From a virus, in IMG/VR virus record IMGVR_UViG_3300025880_000145, positions 1-20,609 of that record: a DNA stretch of 20,609 nt. One strand, 5' to 3'. The first letter of the stretch is position 1, and the number at the start of each line of letters is the position of its first letter. A program made the position numbers and the translations under genes. The notes under the pieces were generated by a model. That model was given only the letters and a program-made list of their open reading frames with translations. It did no database searches and had not been told where the DNA came from. Shown in pieces: positions 4,219-20,609 of the stretch.

Positions 4219-7200
4219 TTATACAGTTAAATCTGTTAAAATCAAACCTTCAGGAGGCTCAGGTACAGACATATCTGCTTGAGGGGGTATTGGCAATGAA
4301 GGTTTTCTGACTATACCCTTTTTATCTATGGCCGCAAACTTCGAAGGGTTATATTCTAAAGCTGATACCTTATACTTATTATAAGGCTCTTCATTAATAG
4401 ACATTACCCGATACAACGCGGACTCATAAATCCTCTGGTTAATTGATCTGGCGTTTTCGAAAAAACTAATATATCCATAATTCTGCAAAGAAAAATTCTG
4501 CGTGTCCATTATTTGCTTTAATTGCGAAGAACCAATAAGCTCAACAATGTCTTCAGATATCCTAATAGTGTGCCAGGATTGAGCAATAATGCTTTGGTGA
4601 AAAGCCCCACTTATATTATCCTCAACACTATCGAAATTAACCGTAAAGTTTTGACTAAGATCCGCGTCATGAGAATTTAAAATCTTTACATGAACAGACT
4701 CCTCTCCCTGAATGGAACTTTCCGAACCAGAAGGAATAAACTCCAAAACCCCCACTCTTTTGAAATTTGAATTATCCAAGAAATTTTCAACAGATGCGGC
4801 AGTAGGAGTGGTGCTGGAATTAGATATTGAGTCTCTATAAGAATCATCCCAGCCTTTAGCAAAATCATCCCTAAATGCTAAAACATAATATTCAGCACCC
4901 TGAACAGGAACAGAAATAACCTCAAGATCAATATCGCCAATCCTGTAGTCGTCCGAAACTTCCAGAACTCCACCACTCTGCATATTATCAAATAAAAATA
5001 TACAATAAATCTTTCCTTTTTCTGAAATTATAGGAGAAATCCAAGTTCCGTCTTCCGAACCTCTCTCTCCATCAGAAACAAGCCAGAATTCAACACCATC
5101 ATTATAGTAAACATCACTCAACCAAATCCAACCCAACTCAAGACTCCAAACCCAACCGCTGAACAGTTCATTATCGAAAAAATTATCTATAGATATCCAC
5201 CTGGCGTAATGAGAGGACAAAAGGATCCAAGATCTAGAGTGAATATAAATTCTACCAAATCTGGAAGATTGAGCCCAACCAAAACCTGAATCGTGCGTAA
5301 CCCCAAGCTTGTTTAATTCCGCATCAGTAAAACCTATTCCGTCTACCCCCAAATCAACACTCCTTCTTTCAGAGTCAAAAAGCCCAGCAATAGAATAAGC
5401 TGAACCTGGGTCTATTTGCTCTATTGCGCTTAAAGTAAGGGGGGAAATCCCTTCGATATTTTCGGGAGAAACGAAATGCTTTCCTCCTCGATTAGACAAA
5501 GAGTCGAAACCTTGATCTACAATATTCACAACCGCCCCTCCATCTTCAAGAGACAAAGTAAAACTATGTCGGTTTACATCTTTAACAAAATAAGCTTTTT
5601 GGAATTTTCTATCGACAGATAGCCCCCCAGGAAGAACCCCAGAGGAAGAAAACCGAACCCTATCCCCGCTCTTTAAGTTATGGTTAAATAACTTAACCTG
5701 ATTTAAGGTTATATCAAACTCAACCTGAAGCTTCAACATTAAATCCGTAAGATAAGTAGACTGCCCATCGGGACCAAAATCCTCTGGGTCGCTAGAAACA
5801 TTAATAAATGCTGAAAACTTAAAGTACTGAGGAGTCTGCAGGGAATCAATTTCCTGATCTTGATCTTGTTGAGAAGATTCGCTTTTACTTCTTTTTTCTA
5901 TCAAATCAAGATCAGTATTAATTGCTCCAGAAGCTATTGTAACCTCAATCCTGGACAAGGAAGGCTCTGACTCTATTCTTTTATCAACAAAGATGAGGTG
6001 CTTAATAATCTCTTTGCCAGCAGCGGTTGTTCTTTTTTTTCTTTTTAAAGAAAGAACCCTTCCGCTTTTATTTTTACCTGCTCGCATTTCGTCAGACACC
6101 TCAATAATAGAACCAGGAGCCAAGTATGCCGCCTCTTGACCGCACTCAAAAGACACCCCCTCAGTCTCTAACTGGGAGGTCATTAGCACCCACCTAGCAA
6201 ACCTCCTTGCTTGACTCTGAGACGTAACTCCCATCGACATAATCTCGTGTTCTAAATAACCAGAAGACTGGGAAGCTTCAGCGTCTTCTTCAAACACAAT
6301 ATCCGGTTTAAAATTTTTTTCTGAATTATTATACCTGATCAAGACAGCGGTTATTCTTTTATTTTTGTAAACGCCAGAATACGTAAAACCATCTGGAGAA
6401 ACATTTGAATTATTAAAAAGCATAGAAGGCTTCTTGAAGCAATCAATCACAGACGTGACCTTCCCATCTTGATAGGAAGTTATACCTCTAAACACAGAAG
6501 CTATAGAGTTTAGAATCTTTAACGAGTCAGCTCTTTCGGTAAAGTAAAAGTTTGAAGAAAACCTAGGCTCAACGACAGCATGATTTTTCTGAACAACGCA
6601 GGCTCCAATAGTATTTTTTATAATTCCTACCCCCGGCATATTATGCTCAAAGGTTGCTGAGTTACTTTCAAAACTAGGACCTGTAACAGTCAACTTTCGT
6701 TTCTTCCAGTCGCTAGAATGAATAACTCTTTCCTCGATCACAATTTCCCCCTCCCTAAAAGCGGACCTTTCTTGAGCTAACCTCCTTTGCGAAAGGGTTA
6801 ACCCGCCTAACGAAAAAGAGTGTTGATGTATAAAAAACGCAATCTTTTTACCCCTAAAAGAATCTCCGTCCCCGAATTCATCTATCCACTCATCATCGGT
6901 AAGCGTAACGTTTTCTCTGTCTTGATCAAAGGAGCTCCCCGAAATATCTAAATCAAAAACGCCCAAATCATATTCATTTCCATCAAACACAATCTCATTA
7001 TAAGTGCTAAACAGGCGAGGCACGCCATGTTTGTTTTCTATAGGAAAATCAGTCTCAACCAACTCATCGCAATATTTAGCGATCCTATAAAGCTGCCATT
7101 TGTCTATATTTTTTTCCTCCAAGCCGTATTTCCCTAGGCCGTACCTGCAATTATTCAACATATCAAAGTATACCCAAGCGGGATTATCTGTCCACACTTT

Positions 7201-8841
7201 ATCTTTATCGCTTATGCTATATATAGATTCAGAGGATGATTTTTGACCCTTGAACAAGCCGTTCCACGGACCTATGTATTTTTTCGAAAACTCATCAAAA
7301 TTAGAAGGGACCAGTACCCTTTTTAATTTCACGTGGAAAGTTCTAGCAGGAACTTTCGAGAAGTTCTTGGAATCGATACAAAAAGATATCAATGAGGAAT
7401 TAGGGTATAAAAGTTTTTCGTTAATTACTTCGACGATATGCGCAACCGACAATGCTCTCTCCCTCCTCATTCCACCAACAGTTCCCCCGCTAACAGAAGG
7501 GTCCAACTCAGAACTGAGTTTTATAAAGTTTAGACTAGATACATTTTCCCCTAAGTCTATCTTAAGATCTACCTGGTAAGCTGATGTAGCAAGACCGTTA
7601 ATCACGAACATCCCATCATTTTCCCCTGTTTTCTCGAGCCAATAAAAAGACCCACTGCCATTACTCAGGGTATTTCCTGAAAAGTCAAAACCCGAAGTAG
7701 GATCTTTTTTTAAATCGACCAAATTATACTTTTCATTATCAATTACAACCTCAATAGCAAACCTTACGTTCCAACCAGAGACTTCGCCACTCTGTTTATT
7801 GGTTTGAGAACCTTGAAATTTAAACGCGGCGATTACCGAAGATACGGAACTATTAGAGACTGAATGAGCGAACGCCTTAGCCCCTTGTTTCATAGCTCTT
7901 TTCGTTGTTCCCCAGAAATCTGCACTTCCCGGAGAAGTTGACGGGCCATAAGGGCTTGAGCCAAACATGACATTTTGATAATCAATTAAATATCTTACAT
8001 CTGGACTCAAAAGCTTAGTCTCGCCATCTTCACCCAATTTTATTACAGGAACATCTTCTGTATCTTCATTTAAAATATAGTTTAGAGAATTATCCCCTTC
8101 CCCGCTAGATTTTGGAGTATTCTTTACTTGAACATTATTTAAAAAAATACCCTCTCTAAGATCTGAAGTGCTAAGGAGCGCTCCATTAGAGTTGGTTAAT
8201 CCTAAAATTGGCCCTTCAGAGATAAGGTCAACATACCTCAACTTAACATAAGACTCTAAATGGCCGTTTTTAGAGTTGGTATATTTAAAAGTCTCCTGGT
8301 AGTGAGAAATTTCGGTAGAGCCAATAATCAACCTTCCGTAACCCAAAGGAACAGCGATTCCCTGGGCTCGCCTATTAGAGCTTCCAGAAAGAAGAAAAGA
8401 CTTTGTAGATACTGGGTCTTTCCTATCGTCCTTAGGTTCAGGAGGCTTTGTTATTATAGCTATAGCTATTTGAACAGCCGTCATAACTATCATAACCTTA
8501 GTCATAACAGCTGCAGCTTTCCAGGCTGCTACAACGGCTGTTATAACTCCGGAACCAGCAACAACTGGAAGAACGTGAATTTCTTTAGAGTTAACAATTA
8601 AGTTAAAATTACTATCTCCTATAGAGTTATCAATTAAATCTCTTTCATTCTTTATGCTCGAAGGGTGCCTACAAACTATAGCGTAGTGAACCTCCCTCAA
8701 TTGTTGATCAATGATATAATCAAAAAAACCTTCACAATTTGAGTCTATAGCTCGAAAAGCCTCCAGCGCACTATCGACGTTAAGGTCGAATTTTCGACCA
8801 AATTTCTCACCTAATTTTCCGTATAAAAAAACACTCTTCAC
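4219..8841 (-). CDS. Fused lambda gpI-like / gpJ-like tail tip (host specificity) protein, 1540 aa
   Basis: Residues 1-95 match the small lambda tail assembly protein gpI (SVFLYGKLGEKFGRKFDL, ending VLPVVAGSG). A hydrophobic, Ala/Val/Ile-rich stretch follows at about 95-131. From about 155 the chain is gpJ-like: NRRAQGIAVPLGYG, RYVDLISEGPILGL, VWTDNPAWVYFDML, CRYGLGKYGLEEKNIDKW and the block around RFARWVLMTSQLETEGVSFE (about 880-900). The usual end of the gpJ tip core, YRVMSINEEPYNKYKVSALEY, is displaced to about 1477-1497. Roughly 450 residues lie between, holding a small beta module (about 1050-1100, LKSGDRVRF) and a tryptophan-rich module (about 1185-1290). gpJ forms the trimeric tip/central fibre hub that binds the receptor. 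The start is GTG with AAGG six bases upstream, and it preserves the gpI N-terminus. The gene ends in tandem TAA TAG. The family call is strong; the roles of the inserts are unknown. Confidence 0.93.
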   Translation of the reverse strand: MKSVFLYGKLGEKFGRKFDLNVDSALEAFRAIDSNCEGFFDYIIDQQLREVHYAIVCRHPSSIKNERDLIDNSIGDSNFNLIVNSKEIHVLPVVAGSGVITAVVAAWKAAAVMTKVMIVMTAVQIAIAIITKPPEPKDDRKDPVSTKSFLLSGSSNRRAQGIAVPLGYGRLIIGSTEISHYQETFKYTNSKNGHLESYVKLRYVDLISEGPILGLTNSNGALLSTSDLREGIFLNNVQVKNTPKSSGEGDNSLNYILNEDTEDVPVIKLGEDGETKLLSPDVRYLIDYQNVMFGSSPYGPSTSPGSADFWGTTKRAMKQGAKAFAHSVSNSSVSSVIAAFKFQGSQTNKQSGEVSGWNVRFAIEVVIDNEKYNLVDLKKDPTSGFDFSGNTLSNGSGSFYWLEKTGENDGMFVINGLATSAYQVDLKIDLGENVSSLNFIKLSSELDPSVSGGTVGGMRRERALSVAHIVEVINEKLLYPNSSLISFCIDSKNFSKVPARTFHVKLKRVLVPSNFDEFSKKYIGPWNGLFKGQKSSSESIYSISDKDKVWTDNPAWVYFDMLNNCRYGLGKYGLEEKNIDKWQLYRIAKYCDELVETDFPIENKHGVPRLFSTYNEIVFDGNEYDLGVFDLDISGSSFDQDRENVTLTDDEWIDEFGDGDSFRGKKIAFFIHQHSFSLGGLTLSQRRLAQERSAFREGEIVIEERVIHSSDWKKRKLTVTGPSFESNSATFEHNMPGVGIIKNTIGACVVQKNHAVVEPRFSSNFYFTERADSLKILNSIASVFRGITSYQDGKVTSVIDCFKKPSMLFNNSNVSPDGFTYSGVYKNKRITAVLIRYNNSEKNFKPDIVFEEDAEASQSSGYLEHEIMSMGVTSQSQARRFARWVLMTSQLETEGVSFECGQEAAYLAPGSIIEVSDEMRAGKNKSGRVLSLKRKKRTTAAGKEIIKHLIFVDKRIESEPSLSRIEVTIASGAINTDLDLIEKRSKSESSQQDQDQEIDSLQTPQYFKFSAFINVSSDPEDFGPDGQSTYLTDLMLKLQVEFDITLNQVKLFNHNLKSGDRVRFSSSGVLPGGLSVDRKFQKAYFVKDVNRHSFTLSLEDGGAVVNIVDQGFDSLSNRGGKHFVSPENIEGISPLTLSAIEQIDPGSAYSIAGLFDSERRSVDLGVDGIGFTDAELNKLGVTHDSGFGWAQSSRFGRIYIHSRSWILLSSHYARWISIDNFFDNELFSGWVWSLELGWIWLSDVYYNDGVEFWLVSDGERGSEDGTWISPIISEKGKIYCIFLFDNMQSGGVLEVSDDYRIGDIDLEVISVPVQGAEYYVLAFRDDFAKGWDDSYRDSISNSSTTPTAASVENFLDNSNFKRVGVLEFIPSGSESSIQGEESVHVKILNSHDADLSQNFTVNFDSVEDNISGAFHQSIIAQSWHTIRISEDIVELIGSSQLKQIMDTQNFSLQNYGYISFFENARSINQRIYESALYRVMSINEEPYNKYKVSALEYNPSKFAAIDKKGIVRKPSLPIPPQADMSVPEPPEGLILTDLTV
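4972..5289 (-). other. Tryptophan-rich module in the gpI-J-like protein
   Basis: Residues about 1185-1290: FGWAQSS, SWILLSS, RWISI, SGWVWSLELGWIWLS, FWLV, GTWISP. The spacing W...LGW-[ILV]-[YW]-[LV]...[FW]W/F matches modules in two other genes of this operon (12537-12968 and 15024-15464). It sits in an insertion within the gpJ fold. Confidence 0.65.
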
Positions 8842-8858: not shown

Positions 8859-9197
8859 CTATACACTTATATTCCCGTATAAGAAAAACTCTTTATCCAT
8901 TAAGCTATATATCAAGAAAGGTAAGCACAGTTCGTCAGAAATTTTCATATCAAAAGGAGTGGGCCTACAACTGGTTCTCGGGTGAGAGTGAAATATGCAT
9001 ACTGTATTATATTCAATTATAAGGCGATTATCTATTATAAAAAAATCAAACTTATTGTCACTCAAATTCTTTGCGGGTAAAAAATAAAACTGATCTTCAA
9101 TTTTATGAATAATACCGCAAGACTCCTCAAGAGGATTAGACAATGCATACGCTTCTATTTCTTTTAATATTTTTTCATTAAAATCAACCCTGGACAT
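8859..9197 (-). CDS. JAMM/MPN (JAB) metallopeptidase, tail assembly protein corresponding to the N-terminal half of lambda gpK, 112 aa
   Basis: The motif set is complete. Counting from the ATG at 9197, Glu25 lies in PLEESCG, and HSHP at 70-73 is followed ten residues after the second His by Asp83 (E...HxH-x10-D). His70, His72 and Asp83 should bind zinc and Glu25 should be the general acid/base. Lambda gpK joins such a domain to an NlpC/P60 peptidoglycan hydrolase. Here the chain ends about 30 residues after the motif, and no NlpC/P60 domain is present. Its position between the gpL- and gpI-like genes is the lambda order. The ATG at 9197 overlaps the gpL-like gene by 14 bases. An upstream TTG at 9227, with GAAGG eight bases before it, would add ten residues (122 aa), but the shorter form matches where this family usually begins. 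The natural substrate in phage tails is not known to me. Confidence 0.88.
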   Translation of the reverse strand: MSRVDFNEKILKEIEAYALSNPLEESCGIIHKIEDQFYFLPAKNLSDNKFDFFIIDNRLIIEYNTVCIFHSHPRTSCRPTPFDMKISDELCLPFLIYSLMDKEFFLYGNISV

Positions 9198-10209
9198 TAT
9201 ACTTTTCTGTACCAGGAAAACCTCCAAATCTCAAACCTTCATAAGTTTGATCAGCCCTATTGTAAGGAATAAGGTCTAGCTTAGATCTACCAAACCTCTT
9301 CGAGCAAGATTCCAGCGTTTTAGAGCATTCATCTTTCAACCAGTACCTAGAGTCTAGATAAGGGTGATGCATAGACACATCCTTATGCTGTTTGTTACAA
9401 ACAAAAACTTGAGGAACCCTTTTTTGGGGGTTTTTGTAAACTTTGCCTTCAATCATTACAACATCTCCGACTTCATATTCAGATTTATTTCGATCCCATT
9501 CAGCAATACTAGAATTCTTATCGGGATCTATATCGTTGTACAATACCCTCCCCTCTTGAGTCTCAATAGGTAAGCCCTTATAACCGCATCCAATAGAGCA
9601 ACGATAGGTCCAGTTACAATAATCAGCCATCACGATCCTTGCAGGAACCCAAGACCCTTCAAATTCTAAAGCCGAGACAAGCTCAAATTGGATAACTTGT
9701 TTGTTTTCTGAAACTTTTTTATTTATAAAGTAAACATCGTCCAAGAGGTGGGAATTTGGATCCGCCGCGCCAAAAGGATTCTTCCCTTTTTCGTTTAAAT
9801 TTTTATTTTGAAAGTTTTCATCATCAAGAAATCTTGCATAAGTCCTCTTTCTTGTGACTTGGCAATTTGAGAAATCTTGATTAGAGTGAGAGATTTTAGA
9901 AAATATACCTTCTGGATTAGCCATTGAAAGCATAGGCCTTGGAAGCTTACCGTCAGAGGAAGAATCAAAACCTTCCATCTTAATAGGTAAAGGTTGATAC
10001 GATACACCTTGCCATATTACAGGATTAGAGTTGTTAATCATTGGGCAAAATCTATACTTAGCCTCAGCTCCGAAGTTGACCCCGTACAAGTCACTTAAAT
10101 TCTCAAAATCTACCTGAAGATTAGAAAAATCTATCTCAAAAAAAGATATAAGAGAGTCAGGAATTAAAGATGTTAATTGCTTATTTAAATTCGATTGGGA
10201 CTTACTCAT
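9184..10209 (-). CDS. Minor tail protein L-like (lambda gpL family) with inserted carbohydrate-binding-like module, 341 aa
   Basis: Strong lambda gpL signature: PVIWQGVSYQPLPI, RPMLSMANPEG, RKRTYARFLDDENF, VPARIVMADYCNWTYR followed by CGYKG, and C-terminal CSKTLESCSKRFG then LRFGGFPG. gpL proteins sit in the tail tip and are known to coordinate an iron-sulfur cluster through four cysteines. The equivalents here should be Cys198, Cys208, Cys295 and Cys302, with an extra Cys204 between the first pair. Residues about 235-295 split the two cysteine pairs and read W..NKSEYEVGDVVMIEGKVYK ... YWLKDE, a small aromatic module like CBM5/12 chitin-binding domains, absent from lambda gpL. The protein is therefore longer than lambda gpL (about 230 aa). 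The start overlaps the previous stop as ATGA, indicating translational coupling, and no Shine-Dalgarno is visible. The gpL call is secure; sugar binding is inference. Confidence 0.93.
   Translation of the reverse strand: MSKSQSNLNKQLTSLIPDSLISFFEIDFSNLQVDFENLSDLYGVNFGAEAKYRFCPMINNSNPVIWQGVSYQPLPIKMEGFDSSSDGKLPRPMLSMANPEGIFSKISHSNQDFSNCQVTRKRTYARFLDDENFQNKNLNEKGKNPFGAADPNSHLLDDVYFINKKVSENKQVIQFELVSALEFEGSWVPARIVMADYCNWTYRCSIGCGYKGLPIETQEGRVLYNDIDPDKNSSIAEWDRNKSEYEVGDVVMIEGKVYKNPQKRVPQVFVCNKQHKDVSMHHPYLDSRYWLKDECSKTLESCSKRFGRSKLDLIPYNRADQTYEGLRFGGFPGTEKYNVQG
9325..9507 (-). other. CBM5/12-like module inserted in the gpL-like protein
   Basis: Residues about 235-295: W, then YEVGDVVMIEGKVYK, then FVCNKQH, then RYWLKDE. 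The pattern W...Y-x-x-GD-x-V-x-x-x-G-x-x-[YF]...W is that of small chitin-binding-type folds. It lies exactly between the two cysteine pairs of the gpL core. Confidence 0.55.
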
Positions 10210-13200
10210 AAATTTTTAATATATACACTTAATGAAGCTTCTTGAGGGCTAAATTGCTCACTGCTTTCTATAATAATCTTTGAACTATAATACGTATCTT
10301 CATTGGAAATTTCAATAGGCCCGGAAGATTCAGGCAAAGTTCTCGACTGAGAGGGACCATGATCGTTCCAGTGAATCTTACCAAATAAAGATTTACTAGT
10401 TTTATCTTTAAACTCTGGAGACCCTTCGATTATTTTAATCGCCTGCCCAACAGTAGTATTTCCATCAAAAGTCCAACCCCAATGATCATTCGTTTCTACA
10501 TAGCTAGGAACCCTGTCCAACATTTTTTGAAACAAAGTACTAAGTGTATCGCTAGTATGAATCTTTAATTTGAATTCGCGAGAAAAAGAAAGTTTTTGAC
10601 TCAAAAAACTTAAATAAGAGGCAGATAGATCTGAATATTTATTAACGTATGATTCGTAAATATCATCGCCGACCAACTTATAATATATTTGCTCGCCATC
10701 TTCGTTCACTAGGTAATTTTTTTCCTGCGAGAAACCTTCCCCATCAAAGACTATATCAATAAAACCAGAAGATCCTCCGGGAATTTCTGCTTGAGAATTG
10801 TTTTCAAAAAACTGCTCAGCAATAAAATATTCACAAAGGTAACGTTCGCCATCCTCATCTAAAACATCCCTTATTTTTCCTGTGTTATCCTGAAAAAAAG
10901 ATTGCTGGCGACCATTTACTAACTTAGGAGTCCACTCGCTTTTTACTGTCCCGCTACCCTCCATTAATATAAAAAATTGCCCACCGTCTAAACCATCCTT
11001 AAATTTCTTATCAAGTTTAATTTTTGCCCCATCAAGATTAAAAGGTAAATTCTTATCACTCGGCAAGACGTAAATAAAAGACTCTGCAGAGGTGGACTCG
11101 GGAATAAAAGGGGGCACCAAGGAGTTAGAGCCAAGAATTTCAAAATGATCATCATTGCAAATAATTGAATGTAAAGTAACAGGTCCATCACCTATATTCT
11201 CCAACTTTAACCTATTCCTTATTCTTTGTTTATTATAACCTCCAGAAGAAAATTTATCCGAGAAAACCAGTGGAGACGAAAAACTTAACTCTCCGGGAGT
11301 ATACAAAGGTGGAGAAGTATAACTGGATAAATTCGAAGAGGTTAAATTAAAAGGGAACTGCTCAAAAACAGCAGAAATGCTATGATTATTCTTAAAATTA
11401 TAAACATGACTCCACTCCGAACATATAAAATTTTGAGGAGTCTCGTATGGAGCAGGAGGAGAGAATAAGAACGGAATAGATCCGTAATGACTCTCTAAAA
11501 AATGAAGAATGGCCCAAGCCTCCTCGTCACCCCTATTATTAAAACTCAAGTTCAGCGTAAGTAAATTATCATTAATACCATCTTTATACATCTGAATATA
11601 AGAGTTATCAACAGAGATTTCCTGGAGAGAAACTGAATGGTTTACCTCAAGACCCAAAGAAGGCTTCCAAAAGAAATCTCTAGTCCAAAATTCTTTATTT
11701 ATTTGTTCGTAATAACCAAACTCACGAGAATATTCGCTCGTTTCACGAACCGGACTTCTTCCATTAACAGAAGAAGACTCATTCCAGTAATAATAATACT
11801 CATGATCTCCAGTAGAAAAAATTACATCATTAAGTTGATAATTTATATTTTCATTATAACTGCCAGGAGGCTTTACATACATACTTTCAGACTTATTAAG
11901 TATTGAAGTATTAAAATTTCTAAAAGATAAAGAAATATCATTACTGTTTTCGAAATTCAAAGAATGGGAAAATTCATTACAGTAAAAATCTTTAGACTGA
12001 TTAGATATTGAATCGTACGGATGGAAGGTTGAATCCCCGCCCCACCTAAATCCAGACACTCCCTGAGAATATTTTAAGTTTACTGAATTTTCGTGTTTTT
12101 CATGCTGCCCCTGATGATTTTCTAAAAAATGAATAATTGCATTAGCTTCTCTGTTAGTCCTATTCTTAAAACTTAAATTAAAATTGCAACTTAGAGAATT
12201 AATAGACTTCGGCTGCGTTATATAATAACCATTACCAAATTCATATTTAAAATTATCGCATTTAAAATTAGCAGAAGAGCCGTAATCGCAGTCAAAAAAG
12301 AACAAATCCTTTGCCCATTTATCAGGGCTACTGCCAGGAGTAAAGTTTATCAAGGATAACTTTATAGGGTTAGAGGATTTCTCCTCGAAAGACACTATAG
12401 AGTCATTATCTGTTAACCCTTGAATTTGTATTTTTGAAACCTTTCCGTCTCCCAGTCTGTCAGGAACAGGAAAAGAAGGCTTAGATTGAGTAATAGTAAC
12501 TCCATTGACATTATTATTTACTCCAGCAAGATCCCTTTTTATGCCGTACCATTTTTCGTTAGAAAAATTATAAATAAACATAGAGTTATCTTGATCGCCT
12601 TTGCTCAGATATAACCAACCTTCAGGCCCAAGCTCATTAGTAAATTGAGGAACCAAGTAAAGAAAACTGTTTGATTCGAGATCACTTCCTCCGATAAGTT
12701 CTTCACTAGCATAGATCCAATGCCCCGCAGGTAAGGCCCCCTCAGGAGTATTTCTTGAAAAAAACGTCTCTCTAAAAAACCACAACTTTCTCTCTGGGGG
12801 AGATAAGCTTAAGCCCTGCGGCAAAGGTGAAAGGTACAACCAACCAAGAGCGCTAGTTCTTATCCAGTTAGTTTCTTGAGAGCGCCAGAATGAAGTTAAA
12901 TTTAATTCATTATCTCCACCTCTTCCAGGAAACAAGAACCAGCTTGATCTATACCAACCAAACCCAACAGTAGAAACATCAAGGGTTTGAAGAATAATGT
13001 CGCTATCGGGAATATTCTCAACGTTAGCTTCAACGTCTTTAATTAAAAAACTTCCATCATTACCATTAACAGAACCCTCTATTTTTAAAGTCTGACCCAC
13101 TTGAAGTTCACTGCCGAGAGCTTCAGCTTCAGCAAGTTCATCTATTATATAATAAGATGGCTTGCCGTCAATTAACGGTCCGTCAGGATCAAGAGAAAAT

Positions 13201-13430
13201 CGGTGAGAGCTCTCGAGAACCAGTCCCGCTCCGTCGGTAATATCCTCCTTTGCATAATAAAAAGAACTATCTCCAGTATTGTAAACAAAATCGAACTTTT
13301 TATAACTAGCTCCTTGTTCAAAATTACCACTATAATTCGAAATATGCCCAGCGAAAGAAGGAGGCTTAAATCCTGGATCAATATTCTCTAGTAACTGATC
13401 TATATAAAATGGAGATCCTGGGTATTTCAT
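10206..13430 (-). CDS. Giant minor tail protein with two gpM-like domains, tryptophan-rich module and Ig-like region, 1074 aa
   Basis: Domain order as read: short aromatic module at about 30-75 (YKKFDFVYNTGDSSFYYA); small beta module at about 75-150; tryptophan-rich module at about 155-298 (FGWYRSSWF, ALGWLYLS, GWLYLS); first lambda gpM-like domain at about 390-510 (FEFG-type GY turn, NLSFKNRTNREANAIIHFLE, FYCNEFSHSLNF); second aromatic module at about 520-590 (YQLNDVIFSTGDHEYYYYW); second gpM-like domain at about 590-695 (NLSFNNRGDEEAWAILHFLE, FICSEWSHVYNF). An Ig-like segment like ASH/SPD-2 domains follows at about 730-828 (LKLENIGDGPVTLHSI ... GSG), then an unrecognised C-terminus. Lambda gpM is a single domain of about 110 residues that starts tip assembly with gpL. 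Position before the gpL-like gene agrees. The gene starts 2 bases after the previous stop and overlaps the next gene by 4 bases. Confidence 0.82.
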   Translation of the reverse strand: MKYPGSPFYIDQLLENIDPGFKPPSFAGHISNYSGNFEQGASYKKFDFVYNTGDSSFYYAKEDITDGAGLVLESSHRFSLDPDGPLIDGKPSYYIIDELAEAEALGSELQVGQTLKIEGSVNGNDGSFLIKDVEANVENIPDSDIILQTLDVSTVGFGWYRSSWFLFPGRGGDNELNLTSFWRSQETNWIRTSALGWLYLSPLPQGLSLSPPERKLWFFRETFFSRNTPEGALPAGHWIYASEELIGGSDLESNSFLYLVPQFTNELGPEGWLYLSKGDQDNSMFIYNFSNEKWYGIKRDLAGVNNNVNGVTITQSKPSFPVPDRLGDGKVSKIQIQGLTDNDSIVSFEEKSSNPIKLSLINFTPGSSPDKWAKDLFFFDCDYGSSANFKCDNFKYEFGNGYYITQPKSINSLSCNFNLSFKNRTNREANAIIHFLENHQGQHEKHENSVNLKYSQGVSGFRWGGDSTFHPYDSISNQSKDFYCNEFSHSLNFENSNDISLSFRNFNTSILNKSESMYVKPPGSYNENINYQLNDVIFSTGDHEYYYYWNESSSVNGRSPVRETSEYSREFGYYEQINKEFWTRDFFWKPSLGLEVNHSVSLQEISVDNSYIQMYKDGINDNLLTLNLSFNNRGDEEAWAILHFLESHYGSIPFLFSPPAPYETPQNFICSEWSHVYNFKNNHSISAVFEQFPFNLTSSNLSSYTSPPLYTPGELSFSSPLVFSDKFSSGGYNKQRIRNRLKLENIGDGPVTLHSIICNDDHFEILGSNSLVPPFIPESTSAESFIYVLPSDKNLPFNLDGAKIKLDKKFKDGLDGGQFFILMEGSGTVKSEWTPKLVNGRQQSFFQDNTGKIRDVLDEDGERYLCEYFIAEQFFENNSQAEIPGGSSGFIDIVFDGEGFSQEKNYLVNEDGEQIYYKLVGDDIYESYVNKYSDLSASYLSFLSQKLSFSREFKLKIHTSDTLSTLFQKMLDRVPSYVETNDHWGWTFDGNTTVGQAIKIIEGSPEFKDKTSKSLFGKIHWNDHGPSQSRTLPESSGPIEISNEDTYYSSKIIIESSEQFSPQEASLSVYIKNL
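12537..12968 (-). other. Tryptophan-rich module in the gpM-like protein
   Basis: Residues about 155-298: FGWYRSSWF, NWIRTSALGWLYLS, LWFF, HWIYASEE, FLYL, EGWLYLS, KWYGI. This is the longest and clearest copy of the module shared by three tail proteins. Confidence 0.68.
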
Positions 13431-13432
13431 AA

Positions 13433-14353
13433 TTAGCTGACTACTTCTCTGATTGATATGGAACCCATTGAGTGTTGACCCTCAGAAATGGATAAAGACT
13501 GATCAACAATTCTGCCGGAGCAATCAAACTTAGCTATCTGAGTATCCTGCAAAGAGTACAAAAAAGCAGAAGCATCAACCATTAGATCGCTATTTACGCC
13601 AGCAAGCCTTTGTTGAACTCCGTAAGAATTTAAAAAAGGAACAATTTCGTTAGAAGTTATATTCATTTTTTTTTCTATTCCTTCAACAGAAACCCTGCAA
13701 GGAAGAACTCCCGAAGCGTTAGTATTTACAGAGGTGTTTTCAGATTCTCTAACTCGATAATGCGTTTTTCTTTCCACCTTTATACTATAACTTAACTCGC
13801 TAATTTCAAATCTGCCCCCAACAACATCCTCCGCAATTGACGAACCAATTTTTAAATCCCCAAAAGATTTCAATCCGTGAGCAAAATCAACCTCGCTCTT
13901 ATTAAAGGTGTCGGCAACACCCTTATTAGTTATAGTTCCGTAAATAGCGTAAGACGCTGAAGCCTGAATAACGCCAAAAGGAACAAGCTTGAAGCTCAAA
14001 GATGTTAAAAAAGCGTTGTCAAACGAGTACCTCCCAACTTTATTTCCGTTAACAGGAAGCTCTGACATTCCACTCTTTATATCGAAGATCCTATTTATGT
14101 TATTAGGGGAGCCGTCTTTTGAAAAAGTTTCTGCAGATATATAGAAACCTATATCCAAAGTTCCAGTTAGCGGCTGAATAGGAGAAAAGCCAACAAATTC
14201 AACTCCCGCTCCAGACAATCCCCTTTTATAATTTCCGTAAACTTTTTCAACAGCAAGAGATGGGCTCATAGACAAATTAGCAGAGTTGACCATTAAATCT
14301 TTATTACCTAAAGATATTTTACCGCTTTCAAATCTTAAAAAAGGGTCACTCAT
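13433..14353 (-). CDS. Putative tail structural protein, tube-like beta fold, 306 aa
   Basis: I do not recognise a named family with certainty. The protein is rich in short alternating beta-strand patterns and has no signal peptide, membrane segment or catalytic motif. Its first 140 residues follow the same plan as the start of the preceding 574-aa protein: an opening strand pair, then P-L-[TE]-G-x-[LF]-x-[IV] (PLTGTLDI here), then a strand pair ending in ASASYAIYGT (compare ETSLTVYGE). Phage tail-tube proteins often show this arrangement, so the two may be diverged copies of a tube-like subunit. The middle has SYSIKVERKTHYRVRE and the C-terminus repeats short strands. It lies between tape measure and gpM-like genes, where lambda has no gene, so a baseplate/distal-tail collar role is plausible but unproven. 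The ATG overlaps the previous stop by 8 bases. Confidence 0.7.
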   Translation of the reverse strand: MSDPFLRFESGKISLGNKDLMVNSANLSMSPSLAVEKVYGNYKRGLSGAGVEFVGFSPIQPLTGTLDIGFYISAETFSKDGSPNNINRIFDIKSGMSELPVNGNKVGRYSFDNAFLTSLSFKLVPFGVIQASASYAIYGTITNKGVADTFNKSEVDFAHGLKSFGDLKIGSSIAEDVVGGRFEISELSYSIKVERKTHYRVRESENTSVNTNASGVLPCRVSVEGIEKKMNITSNEIVPFLNSYGVQQRLAGVNSDLMVDASAFLYSLQDTQIAKFDCSGRIVDQSLSISEGQHSMGSISIREVVS

Positions 14354-16070
14354 AATTTAAATACCTGTAAGTGTCATAACCTTTATATGTCAAAGATATA
14401 GACATCTCCCCCTCAACAGAAGAAGAAATAGATTCTCCCACGAGCCTTACGTTTCTTCCAAAAAAAGAATCAATTTCCAACCCTGTCTTAGAATCACTTA
14501 TGATTATACTTACGTTACTCTTTGGGGCGGACTGAATTCTATCTTTTATTTCTCTTATTTCGTAATTATTTACTATAATAGTAACATTAATGTCTGTTTC
14601 TATTGGGTACTGAGTGTCAACTTGAACAGGTTCTAGATTTTTCACTGAAGCCTTTTTCCCCAAAGCCCAATCCTCTGAAGTTCCTTTTGGGATCGCGTAT
14701 ATAGGTTGAAGATTTATTGCTCGACTAAAACTAAAATCACTAACAGCGTCTATATTAAAATCATCAATAATTATTGATATAGTTGATTGGTCTGGAAAGC
14801 TGATTGGTGGATGACTACTTCTTATAAGTTTATTGACATCGTAAGTAGCTAGCTCAAAAGCGTCTTTTCCCAGAGTCAAAATATCCGAGGCGGGGAGCAG
14901 AAGGTTATCCTGAACAGTTGCAGAAGGAGCTAGGCTTGGAGATAGTTGTCTTAAATTTATATCCTCTAAGCTTAACTCTTCAAGTATTAATTTGGAAGTA
15001 GAATCAACAGATAACCCCGACATTCCGAGCCACCTTGAGCCAGAATGGTCATAAAGAATAGATTTATACTCGCCCAAAGAATCTCTAAAAAATTCAACCC
15101 AAGTATTCTGCATAATATTTTGTTCTGGAGAGAATAAATAAGCTACACCCCTCGAATTTAATAATTCCTGATCGGACCACATCCAAACCGGCGACTGAAA
15201 AGCCCCTCCACTCCCTTGCAATTCAAGAAAAACAGAAAACCACATTTGCTTGCTCGAGGAAAAATTAGACTCAGAAGTTTGAACGTAAACCCAGCCAAGA
15301 AAATTATTAAAGACCCAATAAGAACTTAAGGTATGATCGAAAACCCCGTTCACTTCCGGGCAATATGTAAGGCTATAGTTTAAAGACAAAGAGGTATTCT
15401 TCTTGGAAATAAAAAACCAATCGGAATAATACCACCCCGAGGAATAAGTGCGCAACCCTAAAGCCTCAACAAATCCGTACTGGATAAATTTAGAGTCCTC
15501 GGCTAGACCATTATAAGCCTGATCAGATACACTAAGAGTTTTATTTTTCCAAGACTCAAGCAGATTTACGTTTTGATCAATAAATTCTTCGCTAGAGCTC
15601 GTTAGGTAAACGTAATCCCCATCAAAACCTTCATTATAATTTTTTTTCAAAACAAACAACGAGCTATTCCCAGCCATCACCCCTTTTCCCAGTTCTCCAT
15701 ATACAGTTAAACTCGTCTCTATGGAGGGTATATCTCCCACAGAGCAAGATATCGAATACTGATTAACCCGAGCCTTAGTAAAACCGAAACCTTTCGAGTT
15801 ATTATCGTATAAAATAACTCCACTGATTTCTTGTTCGTCAAATTTATAATTACCCAAAGAGTCCCGCTGAAGCAATGGGTCAGAACTTACCATTTCCCTC
15901 GATACCGAAAAGTTACCCTCTAGAGGCTTGTCAACTAGGGCATCAATAAAACCAACCCCTGCAACCTTAATTGGCTTTTCGGATATCCCATAATTAGCCT
16001 CCACACTCTGAACTCCCGATAAGGCAAAACCGTCAAGAATGACAACTTGTTCGTAATTCGAGTAGCTCAT
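14346..16070 (-). CDS. Putative tail structural protein, tube-like ends split by a tryptophan-rich insert, 574 aa
   Basis: The N-terminal about 130 residues look tube-like (FALSGVQSVEANYGI, DKPLEGNFSVSREM, YSISCSVGDIPSIETSLTVYG). The C-terminal about 190 residues are a second beta-rich part (DFSFSRAINLQPIYAIPKG, QVDTQYPIETDINVTI, EMSISLTYKGY). Between them, at about 203-349, sits a tryptophan/tyrosine-rich module (SSGWYYSDWFF, FLGWVYV, MWF, VWMWSDQE, SRWLGM) shared with two later proteins. The ends read as one interrupted structural domain, so the insert probably protrudes from the tail. No enzyme motif is visible. The ATG at 16070 overlaps the tape-measure stop as TGATG. A TTG one codon upstream, slightly closer to an AGGAGGG, is the alternative start. 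Placement right after the tape measure suggests a distal tail or tip protein. Function is inferred. Confidence 0.75.
   Translation of the reverse strand: MSYSNYEQVVILDGFALSGVQSVEANYGISEKPIKVAGVGFIDALVDKPLEGNFSVSREMVSSDPLLQRDSLGNYKFDEQEISGVILYDNNSKGFGFTKARVNQYSISCSVGDIPSIETSLTVYGELGKGVMAGNSSLFVLKKNYNEGFDGDYVYLTSSSEEFIDQNVNLLESWKNKTLSVSDQAYNGLAEDSKFIQYGFVEALGLRTYSSGWYYSDWFFISKKNTSLSLNYSLTYCPEVNGVFDHTLSSYWVFNNFLGWVYVQTSESNFSSSKQMWFSVFLELQGSGGAFQSPVWMWSDQELLNSRGVAYLFSPEQNIMQNTWVEFFRDSLGEYKSILYDHSGSRWLGMSGLSVDSTSKLILEELSLEDINLRQLSPSLAPSATVQDNLLLPASDILTLGKDAFELATYDVNKLIRSSHPPISFPDQSTISIIIDDFNIDAVSDFSFSRAINLQPIYAIPKGTSEDWALGKKASVKNLEPVQVDTQYPIETDINVTIIVNNYEIREIKDRIQSAPKSNVSIIISDSKTGLEIDSFFGRNVRLVGESISSSVEGEMSISLTYKGYDTYRYLNYE
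15024..15464 (-). other. Tryptophan-rich module in the 574-aa tail protein
   Basis: Residues about 203-349: SSGWYYSDWFF, YWVFNNFLGWVYV, MWF, VWMWSDQE, YLFS, TWVEFF, RWLGM. It aligns motif by motif with the copy at 12537-12968 and separates two tube-like halves of its host protein. Confidence 0.66.
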
Positions 16071-19000
16071 CAATCAAAAAGCAACCCTCCTGGACGCTGC
16101 TCCTGGACAATGACAGCTACAACTTGAGTTTTTATTTTGTCCGCAAACTCTTGAGCTCCGTCAGGCCCTCCATCCTCCGAATTTGGTTTTGCATCTTCAA
16201 CCTGAGTTGCGTCTTCACCTGTGCCCTTTTTAATGTTGACCGATATGGAAATATTATTAGTGTTCCCTCCTGAAGATGTTGACTCAGCAACCGAGTTTAT
16301 AGGGGAAACCTCTCCTCCGAATTGAAATTTTCCTGCATTTATTTGATCAAGCATTGGCTTACCAAGTTGACGAGCACTACTAGCCTTGATTACATACTCT
16401 CCTTCGCTTAACATCGCAGGAATTTGATCGATTCCAGATTTTCCTGCGATGTGTCCACCACTGGCATACTTACGAATTGGGCCTCCGTTGTATAATCGAC
16501 CTAACTGGCTACTATAATTATAATCACCAAATTGAGAAAAATCTCCTACAGGGCTAGACTTAACGCCCGAAAAATCAAATGAGCTTTCAGGCATTCTTGA
16601 TATAGTGTCCCTTCCTAGCCCCATTTTTGGCCCACTGCTGCCGCTAAATATTTTTCCAAGTGCAAATTGAGCGGCAACGCCAATAGCCATATTCATCAAC
16701 TGCTTTCTTTTTGCTTTTTTAGCCTCCCTTCTTGCTTTTTCCATTTGACGAATATGATCTTCCTCTGAAAGTATTGATTGCATTGCACCTGTATCCTCGG
16801 TAAGTCCCACATTATCAGACTGAGCGTAAAAAGCGCTGCTCATCGCTCTTTTTTGGTACAACCTACCAGAGTCAAAACCTCGCCCTCCTCCAAAATTTTG
16901 GGCAAGCGCAGACCCTTGTTCTACAGGCGCCCCCATAGAACCCTCTTCTCTTTTTATTTTCCCCTTCGATAGTAAATTATTCTCCACAGCAGTTCTCAGA
17001 GAATCTTGACGTTTCTTTTTTCCTTCTAAAATTTTTGAAGATATACCGCCACCAATTAATCCAGCACTAAAAACTTCCCCGCCGCTAGCGAATTCAGGAG
17101 CGCGCCCTCCAGCGTTCAATCCATGCATAAATGATCCGCCGTATTTATTTACAGCCTCTCGACTCATTAAATATTCTCCATCCGAAACCCTTGCGGGAAC
17201 ATTTCCGCCTTTTGAGTAATTGCGGACATTACCTCCTTGAGAAAACCCCATGGACCCCATTGCTTGCATGACCATTTTTTGCATCATGGCTTTTTGAATC
17301 ATACCAAGAAACCCAATCGCGGCATCCATTAAACCTTCTTTTATGCTTTTTGTGCCATTAATTGCGTCAACCATTGCGTTGGAAAGCCCATCAGCGAAAG
17401 CTTGCGGAATTCTTTGGCCAAGCTCGTAGTCCATCGTTTCAACTTGTTCTGCCATGCTTTTCATGCCGCCCGCCAACCCTCTACCAAATGCTCCAGATCC
17501 AGTTTCGTGTTTTCTTTTGATTTCGAGTCTTTCTTTCTCTTTATCTAAGAGCGCTTGCTCGCTTGATATTTGTTTATTTGTCTCTTTGGTTATGTTTTTT
17601 ATTTTTTGTTCGATTTCTTCTAGTTTCTTTTTTCTTTCGGCCTCAAGTTTCTCCAGCGTATTCAGTGTTTCTAGGTCTTGGTCAGAAATTAACAAAGGCT
17701 CACTATAATCTTCTGCATCTTTTTTGTTTTGTCTTAAATTTTTGAGTTTATCCTGGTCAACCACTTGATTAGTTTTTTCTTTTTCTATATTTAGCTCTCT
17801 TATAGATCTTTCTTTATTTTCTTCGAGGGTTGTGATTTTAGATTCTAATCTAAATCCTTTCTCGGACATTGCAAAATCTTCCCTTTCCCTACCAGTTTGG
17901 TATCCTGGACCTACAGCATTTAACCTTTTTGCTGCGGCAACTTGTTCGGTAAACCCTCGGATTTTCTGGGAAGACCGAAGGCCTTCTGAAGACATGCGGT
18001 TTTTTCTTTCTAAATCTTTTATAATTTCAGCCCGACCTGCGAGTATACCATTAATCTCTCGCTCTCTATCTGCTTGGCTTGTAGAAACACCCTTCTGCCG
18101 TTCCGCCAGAGACAGTATGTTTTCCATTTTAGTTATTTCTAAAGATAATAATTCATTAATAGCCTTTCTTATTGTTGAATTTTCACCCGCTTCGCTGGCG
18201 ATACTCTCTAAAGTAGACTTTAGTTCTTTTCCAGTTAACGAACCGACCCTCTCACTAATATCTTGAAAAGAGGACGTATCATTCATTCGAAGAGCTTTCT
18301 TTAATTCCCCCTGCAAAGGGTCGTTGACCTTTAATTGAGCTAATATACCTGTTCTTAATTGATTATCGGCAGAAGCTGCCGCATTAGAGTATGCTTCTTC
18401 GGCTTTATTTATTGCTTGAAGGTATTTGCTTTGGGCTTTTTGCTGATCGGTCATCAAGCTACCCATTAATTTTTCTTCAAACTTTAAGTTGTCAGAAATT
18501 TTCGAATAGTTTTCTTTTATCTCAAGCTGTTTTACGGCTGCGGCTTGTTGGGCGGCGATTTGAGCTTTTTGAAGATTAAGTTGTGTAATAACTCCTCGAG
18601 CTTGTCCGTTTTTTGAATTATTATATTCTTCTTCTAAGACTCCTTGTTCTCTTAATTTTTTGTTTATTTGAGATAATTCAGCCTTGCGCTCTTTACCAGA
18701 AATATCTTTAGCAGATTCGCCTTTCAATAATTTGCGGTATTCATCTTTTTGAAATAGAATGTCCTGTCCACCCTCTTCAAATTTAAATTTAAATTTATCA
18801 GCCTTTTCATTATCTAAAAAATAATCGACGGCCTGACCTCGGGCCTGTCTTCTCCCGGAGCCCTTGCTTAATAAACTTTGCCTTAAAGATTGAATGTTAG
18901 TGTACCCCATTGTATTCAAAAAACCTGAAACTCCCCGAATATCATCGTCATCAATATTGGAAAGATTGTAGTTTGGATCAGTTCTCTCTCCAGATGCATA

Positions 19001-20609
19001 GTCTGCCAAGTTGTAAGTTTTTTGCATTTTTGCAAATGTTTTACGATACGTTTTTTCTTTTCGGGCTCTATCTTCTTCAGATATATTTTTAAACTGAGGC
19101 AACTCTTTTGCCCAATTTGGTCCAAACAACTCATCCAAATTTATAGCTTGTTCTTCCTGAGACCCCATTTGATACAAAGTTTGACCCACGGTCATTTTTG
19201 GATCAAAACCTGCCTTGATTGCAGAGGTTAATCCTGCAGATTGAATATCTTTAGTTAATTCTTCTCCTTGAATAATTTTAGAAAAAGTTTGGGACGCAGA
19301 TTGATATTGCGTTGCAAGCCTACGACCTTCTTTCTCTTTCAGAGCTTTTGTATTTTGCTCCATTGCATCATTCCAACCGTCAAATGCGCCGTACAAGGCT
19401 CCTGCGGCAACAACAAAAGGTGCAGCTGGACCCAAAAATGGAGCGACCATACTGGCCATCATTGCTCCTGTAGCTGCGCCCTGCAAGGCCCCTCCCGCTT
19501 GATAAGCCGTTCCTCCTTTTTCAGCTCCGCCTGACTGTAGGTAGCCAGAAGCCATAGATGTACCCATCATCATCATCATGCCGGACCCCGCAAATCTTTG
19601 ACGCGTAGCTGCTCCCCTAGCAGTGGAGTTAGATATTGCAGCTAATTTTCTTTCAGCAGCAGCTCTAGTTTTCACCGCTGCATCAAGATCTCGGCTTGTT
19701 GCGGTTAATCTTTGTTGAGCACGATTGTAGGCAGATGTTCCCTGCTTCTGTCGACTTAATGCTTGTGTTTGTTGTTCTTTTGTTTTGGTTAATTTTTTTT
19801 CTGTTGCCGAGGCCTCTTTAATTGTTTTCGCATATTCTTCGCGAGATTGAAGTAAAGAATCTCTCTTAGCATCGTCCATTCTGAAACCACTCAGAAAGTC
19901 TCCAACAGCATAATTCGGCACAAATCCATTCGCACCAAACACATCACGCAAACCATTTGGCTCATCGTGTGTATTGGTTACGCCGAGGCCGAGGGGGTTT
20001 CCTTTGCCCATGAGTGCACCGTGTGAGCCCACGCGAATTTGTGAAACTGGAACACCAGCTGCTTTTTCCCTACCTATCGCATCAGATAATGGGTCAGCAA
20101 AGTTAGGAATATAGCCTTTCGCCATAGCTAAGTTTGAGATTCCCTCTCCGATCGATTTTGAATGCATGCTTGCAAGACCATACGCTTGTAAGGCTCGGTT
20201 AGACACCCCTTGTTTGAGTAGCCACCTGCTTAATTTACGCTTATCTTTTTTCGGAAAACTGTCCCATGTAAGATGTTCATTCATCAAGCCGTTGAAGTAG
20301 GGATTAGATCTTACCAGTCTTGTCATTTGCCTACGATCTATATTGCCAAATTTGTTTTTTCCAACCAATCCACCCGCGAGAGCTAGCCGTGCTGCGGCAA
20401 AGTTGGGGATGTGGCCGTAAGCCTTCTTGAAATAACCAGAACCTCTCCTATCTAAGCCTGCGTATGCCGCTCTGCCTCCAGTTTTATCTTTATAATCTTT
20501 ATCTTTATATTCCCATGCTGCTCTGCCCCCTGCGAGAACTTGATAAAACTTTTTAGCAGCTCCTTGTTGTAAATTATTAGCCAAGTCAGCTTTTACTTCT
20601 GCTCCCATT
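16070..20609 (-). CDS. Tail tape measure protein, lambda gpH-like C-terminus (5' end probably beyond window)
   Basis: At least 1512 residues (counted from the first Met in the window, 20608). The frame is open to the right edge and nothing supports that Met as the true start. Residues 1-235 hold repeats and three G-x-[IV]-P-N-[FY]-A motifs (65-71, 165-171, 228-234). About 250-325 is a charged helical coiled coil. About 340-412 is Gly/Ala/Met-rich and hydrophobic, with a membrane-segment-like stretch at 385-410. About 640-1035 is long charged helix. About 1055-1120 (QAFADGLSNAMVDAINGTKS, then a Met-rich helix) matches the conserved C-terminal segment of lambda-type tape measures. About 1130-1435 carries a duplicated GG...GEY segment typical of these tails. 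The protein sets tail length and is usually ejected into the host envelope. By the usual rule of about 0.15 nm per residue the tail could exceed 200 nm, less whatever the modules contribute. The gene ends with TGA overlapping the next ATG. Confidence 0.92.
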   Translation of the reverse strand, partial: MGAEVKADLANNLQQGAAKKFYQVLAGGRAAWEYKDKDYKDKTGGRAAYAGLDRRGSGYFKKAYGHIPNFAAARLALAGGLVGKNKFGNIDRRQMTRLVRSNPYFNGLMNEHLTWDSFPKKDKRKLSRWLLKQGVSNRALQAYGLASMHSKSIGEGISNLAMAKGYIPNFADPLSDAIGREKAAGVPVSQIRVGSHGALMGKGNPLGLGVTNTHDEPNGLRDVFGANGFVPNYAVGDFLSGFRMDDAKRDSLLQSREEYAKTIKEASATEKKLTKTKEQQTQALSRQKQGTSAYNRAQQRLTATSRDLDAAVKTRAAAERKLAAISNSTARGAATRQRFAGSGMMMMMGTSMASGYLQSGGAEKGGTAYQAGGALQGAATGAMMASMVAPFLGPAAPFVVAAGALYGAFDGWNDAMEQNTKALKEKEGRRLATQYQSASQTFSKIIQGEELTKDIQSAGLTSAIKAGFDPKMTVGQTLYQMGSQEEQAINLDELFGPNWAKELPQFKNISEEDRARKEKTYRKTFAKMQKTYNLADYASGERTDPNYNLSNIDDDDIRGVSGFLNTMGYTNIQSLRQSLLSKGSGRRQARGQAVDYFLDNEKADKFKFKFEEGGQDILFQKDEYRKLLKGESAKDISGKERKAELSQINKKLREQGVLEEEYNNSKNGQARGVITQLNLQKAQIAAQQAAAVKQLEIKENYSKISDNLKFEEKLMGSLMTDQQKAQSKYLQAINKAEEAYSNAAASADNQLRTGILAQLKVNDPLQGELKKALRMNDTSSFQDISERVGSLTGKELKSTLESIASEAGENSTIRKAINELLSLEITKMENILSLAERQKGVSTSQADREREINGILAGRAEIIKDLERKNRMSSEGLRSSQKIRGFTEQVAAAKRLNAVGPGYQTGREREDFAMSEKGFRLESKITTLEENKERSIRELNIEKEKTNQVVDQDKLKNLRQNKKDAEDYSEPLLISDQDLETLNTLEKLEAERKKKLEEIEQKIKNITKETNKQISSEQALLDKEKERLEIKRKHETGSGAFGRGLAGGMKSMAEQVETMDYELGQRIPQAFADGLSNAMVDAINGTKSIKEGLMDAAIGFLGMIQKAMMQKMVMQAMGSMGFSQGGNVRNYSKGGNVPARVSDGEYLMSREAVNKYGGSFMHGLNAGGRAPEFASGGEVFSAGLIGGGISSKILEGKKKRQDSLRTAVENNLLSKGKIKREEGSMGAPVEQGSALAQNFGGGRGFDSGRLYQKRAMSSAFYAQSDNVGLTEDTGAMQSILSEEDHIRQMEKARREAKKAKRKQLMNMAIGVAAQFALGKIFSGSSGPKMGLGRDTISRMPESSFDFSGVKSSPVGDFSQFGDYNYSSQLGRLYNGGPIRKYASGGHIAGKSGIDQIPAMLSEGEYVIKASSARQLGKPMLDQINAGKFQFGGEVSPINSVAESTSSGGNTNNISISVNIKKGTGEDATQVEDAKPNSEDGGPDGAQEFADKIKTQVVAVIVQEQRPGGLLFD
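16085..16091 (-). promoter_or_regulatory. Shine-Dalgarno inside the tape-measure 3' end
   Basis: The minus strand reads AGGAGGG, the best Shine-Dalgarno at any gene junction in the window. It lies 14 bases before the ATG at 16070 and 11 before the adjacent TTG at 16073. The spacing is long for either, so it may allow partly independent initiation of the 574-aa protein besides coupling from the tape measure. Confidence 0.5.
16307..16471 (-). repeat. Tape-measure C-terminal repeat, copy 2
   Basis: Residues about 1380-1434 (YASGGHIAGKS ... PAMLSEGEYVIKASSARQLG ... INAGKFQFGGEV). It matches copy 1 at 17072-17218 in layout: YxxGG, PA-x-[VL]-S-[DE]-GEY, a short helix, L/I-NAG, then GGEV. Protein-level repeat; the DNA copies are diverged. 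Confidence 0.7.
17072..17218 (-). repeat. Tape-measure C-terminal repeat, copy 1
   Basis: Residues about 1131-1179 (YSKGGNVPARVSDGEYLMS ... GLNAGGRAPEFASGGEV). It pairs with copy 2 about 250 residues later in the same protein, implying an internal duplication that bracketed or later received the Lys/Arg-rich stretch between them. Confidence 0.7.
19565..19579 (-). repeat. (ATG)5 triplet repeat
   Basis: Five CAT units on the plus strand encode five consecutive methionines (about residues 344-348 of the visible tape measure). It is a simple-sequence run inside a Met/Gly/Ala-rich segment. No convincing Shine-Dalgarno precedes it, so I do not call an internal start. Confidence 0.8.
20465..20530 (-). 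repeat. Short in-frame repeat encoding GGRAA and YKDK twice
   Basis: Near the right edge the tape measure reads GGRAA-WEYKDKD-YKDKT-GGRAAY. The DNA for the two YKDK units is a near-exact direct repeat of period 15 bases, and GGRAA flanks it on both sides. It looks like a recent small duplication. Confidence 0.65.

Follow-up and report, generated by a model that had tools for sequence, protein, structure and literature searches.

A distal tail protein with two lambda gpM-like domains in one chain, and its proposed threefold ring, in a group of uncultured phages

The tail genes of the window

The stretch of DNA analysed here (the window) is an entire virus record of 20,609 bases, whose tail genes encode the same proteins as those of L003 (75.8 kb) and L004 (53.2 kb), both longer contigs from IMG/VR. 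All large genes of the window are on the minus strand, as is every window feature located below, and they are arranged in the order tape measure protein, X1, X2, tandem gpM protein (gene MM), gpL, gpK, gpI-gpJ and fibre, the same order being found in the relatives wherever a contig covers it. No tRNA was found in the window, and the window DNA has no match among the INPHARED phages. The tape measure protein, recognised by position and length, is represented by its C-terminal 1512 amino acids (16070..20608), the protein in L003 being 2402 amino acids long. X1 (14346..16073) and X2 (13433..14353) are positioned between the tape measure gene and MM (10206..13430), and gpL follows MM directly. Thus gpM and, after it, homologues of gpL, gpK, gpI and gpJ are encoded in the lambda order, while two more tube-like genes than in lambda lie between the tape measure protein and gpM.

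The gpL-like hub protein (9184..10209) matches PF05100 with 152 bits, and its conserved cysteines are recognised in the alignment. The gpK-like protein (8859..9227; Prok-JAB below the cut-off, phrog_30 with E 4e-14) consists of a JAB-type domain only, the NlpC/P60 half of lambda gpK being missing. The insertion protein gpI and the central fibre gpJ are fused, here and also in the relatives, into one chain of 1540 amino acids (4219..8841; phrog_32 over residues 1-184, phrog_31 with E 1e-108), a fusion that would set the ratio of plug to central fibre at 1:1. A downstream fibre-like protein, assigned by synteny, is cut by the window end (2..4213). A similar aromatic, W-rich segment (GW..S.WF / LGW.Y) is seen in the tandem gpM protein (12531-12968), in X1 (about 14990-15490) and in the C-terminal third of the gpI-gpJ chain (ORF 4219-8841), and X1 of most relatives is without it.

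Anatomy of the tandem gpM protein

MM is an open frame (10206..13430) for a protein of 1074 amino acids with two stretches matching PF05939, the family of lambda gpM (PHROG 14, PDB 8iyk), the textbook distal tail protein. Lambda gpM has one domain of 109 amino acids per chain and six chains, whereas here two domains per chain are present along with extra modules. The constant core of the protein consists of a CBM5/12-like module A, gpM domain 1 (gpM1), module B and gpM domain 2 (gpM2), with variable inserts upstream of gpM1 and a variable length downstream of gpM2. Module A (residues 28-74; 13209..13349), upstream of gpM1, carries a conserved YKKFDFVY..YYA block and matches module B; the variable, aromatic-rich insert at residues of about 155-300 (12531..12968), seen in the sequence, is mostly missing from the shorter relatives; gpM1 occupies residues 377-507 (11910..12302), the CBM5/12-like and conserved module B residues 518-582 (11685..11879), and gpM2, of lambda-like length, residues 586-700 (11331..11675). 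An earlier note on this DNA, made from the letters and the translated frames, had proposed two gpM-like domains in tandem at residues of about 390-510 and 590-695, with another module between them. Both segments do match gpM, by Pfam, by PHROG 14 and by hhalign, so the outcome that would have spoken against the proposal, a match of one segment or of none, did not occur; the positions were nearly right, and the intervening module is module B. The gpM motifs quoted there are present in the translation of both copies, as NLSFKNRTNREANAIIHFLENH ... FYCNEFSHSLNF in copy 1 and as NLSFNNRGDEEAWAILHFLESH ... FICSEWSHVYNF in copy 2.

The whole protein is matched twice by PF05939, with 84.3 bits in total (cut-off 39), the match being picked up also in an independent six-frame search, and the PHROG assignment, PHROG 14 (minor tail protein), is concordant. 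Taken alone, copy 2 reaches 60.2 bits (E 2.9e-16; profile positions 3-106 of 108), and copy 1, whose second half is interrupted by a long insertion, stays below the cut-off with 34 bits (E 4.1e-8; positions 3-67). When copy-specific alignments from 17 sequences were compared, the two copies matched each other over 114 columns (hhalign, 99.3%, E 1.7e-20). A chance similarity of motifs is ruled out by the PF05939 matches together with this match between copies. A profile of gpM2 also found lambda gpM in the PDB (5.5e-9), and the PDB sequence search with the gpM1 profile gave nothing useful. In an alignment with the single gpMs of lambda, KS9, NF, RHEph10, Mcat6 and PSTCR8, the first strand (F-x-W) is aligned in both copies, and both can thus be regarded as complete domains. 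As two domains per chain are found in all the intact members, MM is a variant and not an ordinary, single-domain gpM.

The lower score of copy 1 could be read differently, gpM2 alone forming the ring and gpM1 being a degenerate copy that serves as decoration, a reading that would also account for the match to only two thirds of the profile and for the long branch of gpM1 described below. However, gpM1 is conserved to the same degree as gpM2 (71% versus 70% mean column identity), its strands and helix are kept in the predicted structure, and it is present in every intact member found, making degeneration very unlikely.

Modules A and B are related to each other (hhalign E 1.5e-5; HMM cross-hits of 6e-4 and 8e-5), and therefore the duplicated unit was probably a module plus a gpM domain. 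The CBM5/12 label comes from a similar segment in gpL, whose match to CBM_5_12 (E 0.0012) is below the cut-off of that family, and the putative binding of sugars by modules A and B is a guess from this similarity.

Occurrence and history of the pair

The pair is not a peculiarity of one record. A scan with the whole protein returned 30 loci, all 30 with two PF05939 matches in one frame, and when the scans with the whole protein, gpM2, gpM1, X2 and gpL were pooled (best 80 loci per scan), the order gpM1-gpM2 was found in at least 305 locus-level ORFs, which include many overlapping loci of one contig, and in at least 77 different domain pairs, nearly all from IMG/VR contigs. Judged from these sequences, the pairing of two gpM domains in a fixed order is far beyond chance. 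Its recurrence in 77 different sequences also rules out an assembly artefact or a frameshift fusion. Only four different sequences with gpM2 alone were encountered among the best 80 loci per scan, of which three run off the contig end and one has a split frame. The gpM2, X2 and gpL queries are each able to reach relatives with a single gpM, and none with an intact frame was found through these queries alone among the best 80 loci per scan, nor were single-domain intermediates with a matching gene neighbourhood, which were also sought there; remote relatives with a single gpM may exist beyond these loci. Among the matches listed for 50,697 records of cultured phages, only the gpM2 part was covered, once per record, and no gpM fusion was found.

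One side observation concerns a possible host. A contig of 8 kb that carries the same tail genes (L111) is binned in a metagenome-assembled genome of Flavobacteriaceae. As PF05939 is missing from the other 394 genomes searched of this phylum, the contig may be a binned phage fragment, with a weak hint of a Flavobacteriaceae host.

The shortest ORF, a broken frame, has 463 residues and the longest 1857, with a median of 815, and the linker between gpM1 and gpM2 ranges from 47 to 326 residues. Such variability in the linker would suit a precursor that is cleaved between the domains into separate gpM proteins, but the linker module is itself conserved and none of the genes in the window was recognised as encoding a protease, so we regard cleavage as extremely improbable.

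In a tree of 46 pairs and six single gpMs, for which few columns were available, gpM1 forms a single clade (100/100), its long branch measuring 2.9 changes per column, and all the tandem copies are set apart from the six single gpMs (99/99); gpM2 may or may not be a clade as well. Twenty-six positions are conserved at 90% in both copies, 18 with the same residue and eight with a different one, and a 24-column insertion after the helix (within a region of gpM1 at residues of about 442-481; 11988..12107) is found in all 46 non-redundant gpM1 sequences and in none of gpM2. These patterns are consistent with a single duplication that preceded the radiation of the group, copy 1 having changed faster since then, and the two copies are old and specialised. 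We dropped the idea that the gpM1 insertion is a hub-facing E-loop, as it comes after the helix, unlike the hub-contacting hairpin in the distal protein of T1, which is formed by residues 25-44 (PMC11945409).

Predicted structure and a proposed threefold ring

An AlphaFold2 model of residues 365-705, built with an alignment of 17 rows (mean pLDDT 77.8, pTM 0.80), shows the same order of strands and helix in both copies, with low confidence at construct residues 78-91, in the region of the gpM1 insertion. Its best PDB match by Foldseek is lambda gpM (8iyk_E) over one domain, with a TM-score of 0.86 on the target and 0.30 on the query, and this match and the shared strand-helix order identify the predicted domains as the gpM fold, a beta-sandwich with one helix. 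The second match is 8rk3_D of phage JBD30 (E 8.6e-6, TM 0.49 on the query, with a high rmsd of 12.4 A with gaps), which from its length, 554 modelled residues of 567, we infer to be gp49, followed by T4 gp27, a two-domain hub protein, and then by Chi 8vjh_B; predicted long two-domain tail proteins of phages in BFVD reach TM 0.47-0.49 against the same model. As the query score for 8rk3_D (0.49) is above the value of about 0.30 for one domain, both domains appear to be similarly placed in the two proteins. The side-by-side packing of gpM1 and gpM2 is thus predicted from TM-scores, and in the model the pair appears to be arranged as in JBD30 gp49.

In JBD30, three chains of gp49, each with two beta-sandwich domains, form a trimer that connects the sixfold tail with the threefold baseplate (PMC11445458). 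This protein and its homologue in Chi (PHROG 1082, PDB 8rk3) have two tube-like domains per chain, as here, the modelled arrangement of the pair appearing similar, and the gp49 trimer sits on a threefold hub, where a trimer is proposed here. The JBD30 tube is hexameric. The gp49 domains carry OB inserts; in the tandem gpM protein a short insert is present, in copy 1 alone. By hhalign, no sequence relation of the tandem gpM protein to gp49 was found, gp49 is without a Pfam match, and the chain matches PHROG 14 and not PHROG 1082. Another example is the BTC protein of the archaeal virus HFTV1, a pseudo-hexameric trimer of two homologous domains between tube and hub (PMC12494034), likened here by description only, which occupies the same place in the tail as tandem gpM.

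In lambda, gpM is present in six copies of two conformers, joining a sixfold tube to a threefold hub, and below it three gpL and three gpJ domains build the last ring (PMC10721106). Considering the profile matches, the models and these analogies together, we find it probable that three chains of the fused distal tail protein form one pseudo-hexameric ring above the hub of gpL and gpI-gpJ, the genes for which are close downstream of MM. Each chain would give two side-by-side gpM tube domains, and three chains, instead of six, would fill the six positions and complete the ring where the tail tube ends, immediately on top of the threefold hub that gpL and the gpI-gpJ fusion form. The duplication would have included the carbohydrate-binding-like module before gpM, and the copies would then have specialised, probably because each copy has its own constant neighbour in the threefold hub. 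The fusion would provide one chain per gpL-gpJ pair and fix which domain meets which partner, and the fixed differences between the copies fit such a set partner for each gpM domain. The trimeric ring, the way in which it would touch gpL and gpJ, and any binding of sugars by modules A and B are all inferred.

The earlier note had also suggested that one chain supplies two positions, changing the symmetry or stoichiometry of the tip. The former is the reading with the best support, which comes from the modelled pair and from how it resembles gp49, with the ring itself being proposed. Of the latter, the stoichiometry would change, the number of chains being halved with the six positions kept and each copy assigned to its place; the symmetry part should be corrected, as the six gpMs of lambda already adopt two conformers on a threefold hub. 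Alternatively, each virion could hold six chains arranged as two stacked hexamers, a gpM1 ring and a gpM2 ring, with the tip longer by one ring. The fixed differences between the two gpM domains, and the roughly 60 residues that link them, would also suit this arrangement, but JBD30 gp49, HFTV1 BTC, T5 pb6, p140 and pb3, and the P74-26 tube protein are all side-by-side pseudo-hexamers, and the modelled gpM pair resembles the side-by-side type, so stacking seems unlikely.

The novelty is smaller than the earlier note implied, as trimeric rings of fused two-domain chains are known (JBD30 gp49, HFTV1 BTC, T5 pb6/p140). The gpM domain and the principle of fusion being both known, the application to gpM is the new part, and a description of a tandem gpM was not found in the literature, a weak evidence of absence given that most subscription papers were outside the search. 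The tandem gpM shows that duplication and fusion have also occurred in the family of lambda gpM, within a large and widespread set of uncultured phages, and it bears on the need of lambda for two conformers of gpM; here two positions would have become two specialised copies.

The neighbours of MM suggest that the threefold order may extend further. For X2 (306 amino acids), the AlphaFold2 model (37 rows, pLDDT 72.5, pTM 0.70) best matches by Foldseek chain 7qg9_G of the T5 tail tip, a chain of 298 residues (TM 0.53/0.54, E 1.8e-8), with further fold matches to tail proteins of DT57C, SH-Ab15497, T5 and P74-26. This chain is taken to be p140, as pb6 is chain A of the entry and p140 is pb6-like without the Ig domain. 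X2 is thus predicted to be a ring protein of the tube with two domains, as in T5 pb6/p140, both tube domains being seen in the model. It has no sequence match to this type and is weakly matched by phrog_11805, of unknown function; scans of X1 and X2 profiles against PDB sequences and PHROG gave nothing useful. X1 and X2 occupy the gene positions of the pilus-binding gp47 and gp48 of JBD30 and have the same sizes; that they are homologues of these was rejected, there being no similarity, and a tube-like fold being predicted for X2.

X1 is 575 amino acids long here and about 293 in most relatives. Its C-terminal part is homologous (hhalign 93.8%, E 1.7e-7) to the C-terminal part of the candidate tube proteins, and synteny agrees with X1 being a paralogue of these. 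They are encoded by a pair of paralogous genes located upstream of the tape measure gene, and the tube role was assigned to them by position. The two adjoin each other on opposite strands of contig L115 (4841-6370, plus; 6421-7548, minus), one with a CBM-like insert. They matched no known family and gave no useful hits; at about 375 residues or more they have enough length for two domains, and their two halves have no sequence similarity to each other.

In T5 (pb6 and p140) and in P74-26 (the tube protein), a ring is made up of three two-domain chains (PMC5717097, PMC10038345, PMC10034513), and the distal protein of T5, pb9, is a true hexamer with a threefold ring on either side. T5 pb6 and p140 are fused tube domains that give trimers, with X2 predicted to share their fold; pb9 is unfused, whereas the protein of that ring appears to be fused here. 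Given the likeness of X2 to the T5 ring proteins, much of the tail may be threefold. With the X2 model matching trimeric two-domain tube proteins, X1 homologous to the candidate tube proteins, and these long enough for two domains, it is conceivable, at slightly less than even chances, that all rings from tube to hub (tube protein, X1, X2 and tandem gpM) are trimers of fused tube domains. The distal tail protein would then be one more threefold ring and not a sixfold-to-threefold adaptor, and a T5-type tail would carry a lambda-type hub. Together with the T5-like neighbours, the tandem gpM suggests that cultured phages may under-represent the frequency of threefold tails in nature, and that the six-to-three switch can shift along the tail or be lost. 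Near the candidate tube genes, L115 also encodes a protein of 1210 amino acids (9327-12959, plus) with many D-x-D-x-D repeats, which by eye resembles calcium-binding, thrombospondin type 3-like sequences.
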